DNA of 36,339 bases from Candidatus Iainarchaeum sp. (GTDB taxonomy: Archaea > B1Sed10-29 > WALL01), in contig JAGGYF010000036.1 of assembly GCA_021162685.1 (NCBI GenBank), positions 1-36,339 of the forward strand. The letters are read 5' to 3'. The translations under genes were made by a program, and so were the position numbers. How positions within the stretch are numbered: position 1 is the stretch's first letter; each line of letters starts with the position of its first letter. This document shows positions 4,588 through 36,339 of this stretch, in pieces. The notes beneath the pieces were generated by a model. That model was not told the origin of the DNA. It worked only from the letters and a program-made list of their open reading frames with translations, and made no database searches.

Positions 4588-4613
4588 TATTTTTATACAC
4601 GGAGATGAATAAA

Positions 4614-4738
4614 CTTCCAGCAAATAGTGGGGCTGTGGGGTAGCTGTGCAGCGTCCCTAGGGGAAACCTCTGCGGGTTTCCCCTGGCTACCCTGGGAAGC
4701 CCACCCCTTCCAGCAAACAATGGGGCTGTGGGGTAGCT
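4614..4738 (+). repeat. tRNA-Pro-associated element, copy 1: 32-nt leader+tRNA 5' duplication (4614-4645 and 4707-4738) flanking a ~61-nt structured insert
   Basis: cttccagcaaatagtggggctgtggggtagct versus cttccagcaaacaatggggctgtggggtagct (2 mismatches). Insert contains a 10-bp hairpin AGGGGAAACC/GGTTTCCCCT. Confidence 0.85.
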
Positions 4739-4794
4739 TGGTATCCTGCGGGCTTTGGGAGCCTGTGACCTGAGTTCAAATCTCAGCAGCCCCA
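4722..4794 (+). tRNA. tRNA-Pro(TGG)
   Basis: GGGGCTG/CAGCCCC acceptor, CGGGC-TTTGGGA-GCCTG anticodon arm, GAGTTCAAATCTC T-arm. Confidence 0.93.
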
Positions 4795-4830
4795 TTACTT
4801 AACAGCGTAGTTTTGTTGAGGAGCACCAAT

Positions 4831-4916: not shown

Positions 4917-5004
4917 CTGACCAAATTACATATGGTCGTTCGTAGTGTGGCATAAAGCCACACTATTAGAAATCATTGAAAGGAAGGGGTGTGGAATCCG
5001 AGGG
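4917..5004. repeat. Structured repeat family, copy A (short form)
   Basis: CTGACCAAATTACATATGGTCGTTCGTAG followed by a perfect 9-bp hairpin TAGTGTGGC-ATAAA-GCCACACTA, then TTAGAAATCATTGAAAGGAAGGGGT. Confidence 0.75.
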
Positions 5005-5095
5005 TACGCAAAGCGAAGCAAGGGAGTATATCCCCATAGTATGCTCTGCGCTTCGCATTGCGCAGGGGGAACCTGGGTTCCCCATAAAGGACGCT

Positions 5096-5250
5096 CTGAC
5101 CAAATTACATATGGTCGTTCGTAGCGTGGCAGCCTTTTTCCGCTTCAGGCGGAAAAAGCCTGGGGAAAGTATAATCATGTTCGCCCTGCCGGCGAACAAG
5201 GACGCCTTCGGCGTTTTATGCTTACAAAATCACACCATTAGAGGAGGGGG
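5096..5250. repeat. Structured repeat family, copy B (long form with three-hairpin cassette)
   Basis: Repeats CTGACCAAATTACATATGGTCGTTCGTAG from copy A, then cagcctttttccgcttcaggcggaaaaagcc..gttcgccctgccggcgaac..acgccttcggcgt, nearly identical to 36189-36274. Confidence 0.85.
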
Positions 5251-5306
5251 CTGCCTCCTAGTGATATCTTTCAGATTCCCGTATATCCTAGTTGAATGGT
5301 GATTTA

Positions 5307-10805: not shown

Positions 10806-10941
10806 GCCGGCGTAGCTCAGCCTGGTTAGGCCATGCGTCGTTGATGAAATCGGCGCAGGGACCAAAGCGCCAGACTCATAGGGATGGCATGAGCCCTCCG
10901 GAGATATCTGGAGGTCGCGGGTTCAAAGCCCGTCGCCGGCA
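10806..10941 (+). tRNA. tRNA with CAT anticodon (Met elongator or Ile2), two introns: 10830-10865 (D-loop) and 10881-10905 (37/38)
   Basis: Removing both introns restores GCTC/GAGC D-stem and CCAGA-CTCATAA-TCTGG anticodon arm; acceptor GCCGGCG/CGCCGGC. Confidence 0.88.
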
Positions 10942-11029
10942 CTTTTTCTTAGTAATTGCAAGAAAATAGTTAAACTTTGATATGATAATGCCATAAAACT
11001 TATATATGTGAAAATAACATAATATTAAT

Positions 11030-15570: not shown

Positions 15571-15667
15571 GCCTCGGTAGCTTAGCGGTATAGCGCCGGT
15601 CTTGTACAGCCCAACAATATGGGCTAAAGATAACCGGAGGTCGAGGGTTCGAATCCCTCCCGAGGCT
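15571..15667 (+). tRNA. tRNA-Thr(TGT) with 25-nt intron 15607-15631
   Basis: GCCTCGG/CCGAGGC acceptor, CCGGT-CTTGTA|A-CCGG. Intron inner helix AGCCC/GGGCT and 3-nt bulges fit a BHB. Confidence 0.93.
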
Positions 15668-22450: not shown

Positions 22451-22590
22451 AATGTCATTAAAAATATGTTATGGGATCGTGGGGTGGCTGTGCAGCGTCC
22501 CTAGGGGGCTTCGCCCCCTGGCTACCCTGGGAAGCCCACCCCTTCCCTCATAATGTCATCAAAAATATGTTATGGGATCGTGGGGTAGCT
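22451..22590 (+). repeat. tRNA-Pro-associated element, copy 2: 39-nt leader+tRNA 5' duplication (22451-22489 and 22552-22590) flanking the shared structured insert
   Basis: aatgtcattaaaaatatgttatgggatcgtggggtggct versus aatgtcatcaaaaatatgttatgggatcgtggggtagct (2 mismatches). Insert shares gtgcagcgtccctagggg..cccctggctaccctgggaagcccaccccttcc with copy 1. Confidence 0.87.
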
Positions 22591-22646
22591 TGGTATCCTC
22601 GCGGCTTCGGGAGTCGCAGACGGGAGTTCAAATCTCCCCGATCCCA
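22574..22646 (+). tRNA. tRNA-Pro(CGG)
   Basis: GGGATCG/CGATCCC acceptor, GCGGC-TTCGGGA-GTCGC anticodon arm, GGAGTTCAAATCTCC. Confidence 0.93.
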
Positions 22647-22759
22647 CTTCAGCTCCTTTCTTTTTAGAAAAAAGAAAGTAGTTGGCAGTCAAAGAAAAAC
22701 TAATCTTCTCTTCCTTTGAGAAGCATATTACTGTGGTGCAGCTTTCAGACGCCTTTTGG

Positions 22760-22774
22760 ATCTCCCGATCCCAC
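22760..22774 (+). repeat. Imperfect direct repeat of tRNA-Pro(CGG) 3' end
   Basis: atctcccgatcccac versus atctccccgatcccac at 22632-22647 (one gap; 11-nt exact core). Confidence 0.7.
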
Positions 22775-22812
22775 CAATGTTTTTAAATGAGTACAGACAA
22801 AACAAATTACGC

Positions 22813-22903
22813 CCCCGCTTAGCTCAGTCTGGTAGAGCGGTCGGCTGTAGATGGTAGCTCTGCCGATACCGACAGGTTGCCGGTTCAAATCCGGCAGCGG
22901 GGA
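22813..22903 (+). tRNA. tRNA-Tyr(GTA) with 17-nt intron 22851-22867
   Basis: CCCCGCT/AGCGGGG acceptor, GTCGG-CTGTAG|A-CCGAC, GCCGGTTCAAATCCGGC. Confidence 0.92.
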
Positions 22904-22904
22904 T

Positions 22905-23034
22905 GCCCCGGTGGTGTAGTTCGGTTTATCATCTGGGACTGTCGTAGCCCTCAAGGGAAGAGGGTAGAGGGAGAAACCGTAGGTGTCTCCTCTGCAGATA
23001 TCCCAGGACTCGGGTTCAAATCCCGGCCGGGGCG
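22905..23034 (+). tRNA. tRNA-Asp(GTC) with 55-nt intron 22945-22999
   Basis: GCCCCGG/CCGGGGC acceptor, TGGGA-CTGTCG|A-TCCCA. BHB central helix CTGT/GCAG with 3-nt bulges. Confidence 0.92.
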
Positions 23035-23122
23035 CTTTTTTGTGGGGAACCGAGAGGTGCTCATTATAATATCAAATATAAATGCGTAAGCACTTGGAGG
23101 GGGATAGGATGAAAGAAAAGAT

Positions 23123-36188: not shown

Positions 36189-36339
36189 CAGCCTTTTTCC
36201 GCTTCAGGCGGAAAAAGCCTGGGGAAGTATAACCATGTTCGCCCTGCCGGCGAACAAGGACGCCTTCGGCGCATGCTTAAAAGATCCCACTATTAGAAAA
36301 CCATAAGCTGGGGTCGCATAGGCCCAAATTACATATGGG
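36189..36339. repeat. Structured repeat family, copy C, running into a further unit at the window edge
   Basis: 36189-36274 nearly identical to copy B hairpin cassette; CACTATTAGAAA tail as in copy A; CCCAAATTACATATGGG at the end. Confidence 0.85.

Follow-up and report, generated by a model that had tools for sequence, protein, structure and literature searches.

The DNA analysed in this study, referred to as the window, is a stretch of 36,339 nucleotides that represents contig 12 of a 1.11-Mb archaeal genome with 98% completeness. Within it, the intact gene of tRNA-Pro(TGG) is preceded by a short insert, named E1, which lies between two copies of the leader and 5' end of the gene itself (Table 1). 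The original prediction of a 32-bp direct repeat around a 61-nt insert was exact in its coordinates, and the two copies were identical at 30 of 32 positions; because of these two mismatches, E1 is not considered very recent. The flanking repeat of E1 scored 27, and none of 4000 random positions reached 25. A chance origin of this repeat is excluded. The perfect 10-bp hairpin described earlier within the insert was also present (hairpin 1). The core of E1, CAGCGTCC...CACCCC, was matched by the family covariance model at 4649-4707 with 64 bits. ARAGORN and Rfam called nothing inside the insert and gave only the single intact tRNA-Pro(TGG). The suggested pairing of GTGGGGTAGC with GCTAC..CCCAC needs the tRNA flank, which most other copies do not have, and was given up as a property of the insert; long pairing between the tRNA D-arm and the insert was dropped as a family property.

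Table 1 Positions of the element copies and their flanking features in the window.
Feature	Positions	Strand	Remarks
TATA-like sequence TTTTTATACA	4590-4599	+	Upstream of the left copy; by eye, putative archaeal promoter
Left target-site duplication of E1	4614-4645	+	CTTCCAGCAAATAGTGGGGCTGTGGGGTAGCT; leader and first ~17 nt of tRNA-Pro, reaching the D-loop
Inserted element E1, short type	4646-4706	+	61 nt
Hairpin 1 of E1	4659-4684	+	AGGGGAAACC..GGTTTCCCCT
Hairpin 2 of E1	4685-4701	+	GGCT-ACCCTGGGA-AGCC
Right target-site duplication of E1	4707-4738	+	CTTCCAGCAAACAATGGGGCTGTGGGGTAGCT; runs on into the intact tRNA
Intact tRNA-Pro(TGG)	4721-4795	+	ARAGORN and Rfam
Terminal tail hairpin of E5	4917-4952	-	..ACGAACGACCATATGTAATTTGGTCAG
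Element E5, long type, enlarged hairpin 2	4977-5096	-	Between tRNA-Leu and ORF at 5292; tail to 4917
Second tail-hairpin copy abutting left end of E5	5096-5131	-	Tandem or nested element
Left target-site duplication of E2	22451-22489	+	39 bp, 2 mismatches
Inserted element E2 before tRNA-Pro(CGG)	22490-22551	+	Core 22493-22542, 67 bits
Right target-site duplication of E2	22552-22590	+	Runs on into tRNA-Pro(CGG), 22574-22647

A second copy, E2, adjoins tRNA-Pro(CGG) in the same arrangement (22451-22590). The duplicated leaders of E1 and E2 are unrelated in sequence, and the leader therefore derives from the target and not from the insert. The two copies occupy the same position in two paralogous tRNA genes, and a partial gene conversion is conceivable for this pair. 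A further copy, E5, lies on the minus strand beside the ORF at 5292, which we take by eye to be Nudix-like. The 3' end of tRNA-Pro(CGG) is partly repeated as well, with ATCTCCCGATCCCACC at 22760-22775 following an insert of ~110 nt (window 22648-22775). The minus strand of this insert starts near GGCGTCTG, and part of it recurs on contig 41 (L019). Both ends of tRNA-Pro(CGG) may have received insertions. A different dispersed repeat, CAGCCTTTTTCCGC..GGACGCCTTCGGCG, occurs at window positions 5130-5213 and 36189-36271 with 90-100% identity and also near elements in L019 and L059; it may be a related family. Element-tail-like sequence was seen at the contig end of the window (36288-36339). Several element copies sit at contig ends, and the repeats therefore probably break the assembly.

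The covariance model was built from 16 copies, and 19 genomes of the phylum were searched with it, counting matches at E <= 0.1. Altogether 41 copies were found in 6 of the 19 Diapherotrites genomes (MAGs). The genome of the window has 10, four relatives from its own family have 12, 11, 5, and 1, and the sixth genome, which belongs to another family of the order, has the other 2. Homologues are thus located at many loci beyond the two first considered. The DNA searches placed copies at the start of a carbamoyltransferase (argF-like) gene, at a tRNA-Val 3' end, at the start of a pilin gene, and elsewhere. Copies were read as stretches around the matches, and the protein genes were identified by Pfam, with the pilin match just below the curated cut-off. 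The relatives with the element (JAGMCR01, JAFGGZ01, WALL01, JAUVIW01) are metagenome assemblies of Diapherotrites/DPANN that originate from separate projects, which argues against an artefact. Under stricter filters, a sample of 397 archaeal genomes yielded no further copies. Searches of viral contigs, phages, and plasmids returned no viral, phage, or plasmid sequence carrying the element. Two IMG/VR contigs with a match to the 3' pattern were rejected as chance matches in phage coding sequence. No named family had been recognised in the insert at the outset, and this was borne out by Rfam 15, which gave only tRNA and RNase P at the gathering score and nothing for the element; a scan at E <= 10 yielded only sub-threshold noise. 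These data establish a real family of archaeal small mobile elements without an existing name, confirmed beyond the first locus.

The element is non-coding, without an ORF, and measures ~55-190 nt. Its left end is precise, reading [CG]AGCGTC, and is followed by a two-hairpin core of ~50-60 nt and then by an optional right tail ending in another hairpin. The right end falls into largely discrete types. The short type stops just past CACCCC, and the long type has a tail closing in a further hairpin; tailed copies total ~100-190 nt, and up to ~290 nt with nested hairpins. Tail matches numbered 21 in the genome of the window. Hairpin 1 varies among copies in length, loop, and sequence, with its pairing kept. 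Hairpin 2 has the consensus GGNN-ACCCTSGGR-NNCC, with the covarying pairs GCT/AGC, GAT/ATC, and GAA/TTC. Among 39 distinct copies, 90% of the cells were paired, compensatory change was present in 24 cells compared with 6.3 in shuffles, and the covariation score was 0.209 compared with 0.016-0.134 for slid partners, values obtained on an alignment fitted to the tested structure and so biased towards it. The hairpins thus covary among the copies. No matching terminal inverted repeats were seen in the copies by inspection.

Some copies carry large extra hairpins within the loop of hairpin 2. In L113 and L115, this loop holds nested inserts of repeated GGCGATTTCCGAAATAAGG-type hairpins, which perhaps form a third repeat family with the element as its target. 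At the pilin-start copy (L016, 1255-1674), one frame is open across the insert for 140 aa and runs off the stretch. A reading of the tails in genome G002 as integron attC sites was rejected; the RYYYAAC/GTTRRRY motifs make one small hairpin and stand in the wrong order.

Target-site duplications were assessed with the left junction fixed by the element and with direct repeats scored at 12 or more within 420 nt. A strong flanking direct repeat was found at 24 of 37 tested junctions, compared with 25 of 4000 random positions (0.6%). The other 13 junctions had no strong duplication, and some of them are located at contig ends. Most duplications are 11-53 bp long, and their sequences are local and mostly unrelated between sites. 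The length tends to go with the type of the element, at ~13-27 bp for the long type and ~32-53 bp for the short type. The duplications are exact at some sites (32/32, 21/21, and 18/18), which suggests recent activity. At several sites, the unit of duplication plus element is repeated head to tail. When duplications spaced up to 1.5 kb were sought, no larger, gene-carrying element was found.

No insert is present at tRNA-Pro(GGG) in the genome of the window or at the tRNA-Pro genes examined in relatives. One gene is presumed, from C and D boxes identified by eye, to encode a C/D-box sRNA. Of two genomes, the first has the element at the 5' end of this gene, and the second has it at the 3' end. 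In the first genome the 3' site is empty; in the second, the 5' end is occupied by a tail-like insert of another kind that has a partial repeat of its own.

More than half of the tested junctions lie at tRNA genes, in the T-loop, in the D-loop, or within 4 nt of the gene end. Such genes are estimated to make up well under 1% of a genome of this kind. Four classes of tRNA target were distinguished: antisense in the T-loop (..GGATT|TGAAC or ..GGATTCGAA|CC) in His, Gln, Cys, Met, and Leu genes; sense just past the 3' end in one Arg, two Val, and one Gly gene; sense in the D-loop in both of the window's tRNA-Pro genes, in one Gly gene, and in one gene of the sixth genome; and antisense at the 5' end in three Ser genes. 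The non-tRNA targets are RNase P RNA, where one copy begins 4 nt past the 3' end, the presumed C/D sRNA, the argF-like start, and the pilin start. Because the duplicated stretch includes the gene end, the tRNA or carbamoyltransferase gene that is hit stays intact. This preservation can reflect survivorship. The marked excess of tRNA genes over intergenic DNA, together with the clustering in loops, would probably not be produced by survivorship alone.

The insert before tRNA-Pro(TGG) almost certainly belongs to a family of small, non-coding mobile elements found in Diapherotrites/Iainarchaeota. The original prediction had offered an element that enters tRNA-Pro at its 5' end, with duplication of ~30-40 bp. 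The insertion and the duplication stood, and tRNA-Pro proved to be one of many targets. It had also offered a tandem duplication of the tRNA-Pro 5' end in which one copy evolved into another structured RNA, and the left copy is indeed a true tRNA-Pro 5' end. However, the same insert occupies many loci other than tRNA-Pro with differing, unrelated flanks, including protein-gene starts and RNase P RNA; this refutes the tandem origin, which is left with hardly any credibility. A functional cis-acting leader RNA that regulates the expression or processing of tRNA-Pro would agree with the position of the insert: the single TATA-like box recognised by eye lies upstream of it, and the insert is probably transcribed from there in the tRNA leader. 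The absence of the insert from tRNA-Pro(GGG) here and from the tRNA-Pro genes examined in relatives speaks against such a function, as does the presence of the element in either orientation at many unrelated genes, and we regard it as very unlikely. Two further candidates were rejected. An integrase att site does not agree with the duplicated sequences, which differ between sites, or with the absence of PF00589 from the genome of the window. In a CRISPR array reading, the insert is constant while the repeats differ, and no Cas1 was found.

Overall, the observations are very probably best explained by a non-autonomous mobile element with target duplication, whose enzyme probably acts in trans and would lie outside the families tested. 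The target would plausibly be cut in a staggered fashion. For a tRNA gene, one of the two cuts would lie inside the D- or T-loop or at the end of the gene; its counterpart would lie closer to the gene end or past it. Joining would take place at the AGCGTC end of the element, whether this is single-stranded DNA, folded DNA, or a copy made from an RNA, and gap filling would then make the duplication. With positive controls, reverse transcriptase (PF00078) and Cas1 (PF01867) were each detected in none of five family genomes, one of them 98% complete, and the Y1 tyrosine (HUH) transposase (PF01797), the enzyme of REP/RAYT systems, in none of six genomes that included these five. SINE-like retroposition, in which a structured RNA, the strand with ..GGACGCTG-3' at its end, would be copied by a reverse transcriptase onto a nicked target, fits the one precise and one heterogeneous end, the variable duplication length, the conserved secondary structure, and the preference for RNA genes. 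It seems unlikely, given that PF00078 was missing from the five family genomes, where a partner or viral enzyme is possible, and that the right ends are mostly discrete types and not random truncations. A replication error with no dedicated enzyme, in which a nascent strand quits a hairpin-prone RNA gene, copies the element, and rejoins upstream, would account for the variable duplication length, the hairpin-loop targets, the nested or mosaic copies, and the failure to find an enzyme. It does less well with the precision of the AGCGTC end at unrelated targets and with the lineage-restricted spread, and it is a rather doubtful route. Integration like that of casposons or CRISPR adaptation, in which a Cas1-type integrase reads T-loop/tRNA motifs and integrates small DNAs with duplication of the target, has a precedent in the A. 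boonei casposase with its tRNA-Pro 3' end, T-loop motif, and 14-15-bp duplications (PMC6614799), and the tandem repeat-insert-repeat arrays look CRISPR-like. The five family genomes have no Cas1, no matching terminal inverted repeats were seen, and the duplications are variable, up to 53 bp; this route is quite improbable.

As a separate observation, no protein of the Phage_integrase family (PF00589), and hence no detectable XerA, was found in the genome of the window, which is 98% complete, and the same applied to 6 of 9 relatives searched alongside.

A sister element was also identified. The tRNA-Asp intron (within 22905-23035) holds AGGAGACACCTACGGTTTCTCCCTCTACCCTCTTCCCTT in antisense at about 22950-22992. 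Four further genomes of the phylum contain close matches to AGGAGACACCTACGGTTTCTCCCTCTACCCTCTTCCCTT, and a fifth contains a weak one; among these are a 43/43 match adjacent to a 23S rRNA gene and matches located in introns of tRNA-Pro and tRNA-Trp. A genome from another family has the sister element in T-loop insertions with 20-21-bp duplications. The sister element aligns with hairpin 1 of the element plus the following CTACCCT, and its blastn match to one family copy has an E value of 7e-4. The predicted introns of three tRNA-Pro genes begin exactly with the sister element. This suggests that tRNA introns may arise from related elements; vertical inheritance of the sister element within tRNA-Pro genes is a possible alternative. 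Tentatively, a phylum-wide superfamily of Iainarchaeota hairpin elements might enter tRNA genes at their loops through an integration chemistry not described before, with T- and D-loop insertions neutralised by the duplication and anticodon-loop insertions surviving as spliced introns, and so give rise to tRNA introns in archaea. For one locus, disruption of a tRNA gene by way of a mobile element has been proposed earlier (PMC3293823).

Small mobile repeats are well known in bacteria; here, the family is archaeal, with duplications up to ~50 bp and RNA-gene targets. Its spread in small genomes without detectable reverse transcriptase, Cas1, or Y1 transposase points to an undescribed mode of DNA integration. 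If the link to introns is true, it provides a testable route for tRNA intron gain, a long-standing question in tRNA evolution. The insertions also call for caution in annotation: if long introns are permitted, ARAGORN joins the two duplicated ends of the tRNA at exactly these sites into false intron-containing tRNAs. Elsewhere in the window, the name that ARAGORN gives to three intron-containing tRNA genes changes with the intron setting: 10806-10942 (Thr CGT), 15571-15667 (Leu CAG or Thr TGT), and 22813-22903 (Tyr).

Several known systems share features with the element. Eukaryotic SINEs are short structured non-autonomous repeats with one precise end and variable duplications. The element shares these traits but is archaeal, and no reverse transcriptase was found. 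Prokaryotic MITEs are, like the element, small dispersed non-coding repeats; the element differs in having no matching terminal inverted repeats by inspection, no related transposase found in the search for Y1 enzymes, and long, variable duplications. Head-to-tail units resemble a CRISPR array, but with the roles of repeat and spacer exchanged.

The A. boonei casposase recognises TCAAATC and integrates at the tRNA-Pro 3' end with a 14-15-bp duplication (PMC6614799). This motif is T-loop sequence, and the enzyme is the closest mechanistic counterpart. Family 2 casposons (PMC6614799) have in common with the element an archaeal host, a tRNA-gene target, a T-loop motif, and target duplication. However, casposons are autonomous, with terminal inverted repeats, Cas1, and 14-15-bp duplications, whereas the element has neither Cas1 nor an ORF and makes duplications of 11-53 bp; the missing Cas1 and the longer duplications argue against membership.

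The CGTC-tagged REPs, including Rickettsia RPE-4/RPE-6 and Neisseria dRS3, are hairpins that bear a CGTC tag and for which no transposase is known (PMC3733652). Common to both are small hairpin repeats, CGTC at one end, the absence of a known dedicated transposase, clusters, and insertions into genes. The REPs are bacterial palindromes of 20-40 bp with CGTC on a stem starting with A/T pairs and mostly a CCA tail, and 'duplication' is not mentioned for them (PMC3733652). In contrast, the element is archaeal, has a tail in addition to its two-hairpin core, duplicates 11-53 bp, and strongly targets tRNA genes; it reads CGTC-CCT-AGGGG..CCCCT-GG, without the A/T stem start or CCA tail of that description. 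The four-letter CGTC tag may be shared by coincidence. The disruption of tRNA-Thr in Caldiarchaeum has likewise been attributed to a mobile element, at one locus and by a 1.87-kb insert with a predicted recombinase (PMC3293823), whereas here a tiny non-coding family is found at many loci.
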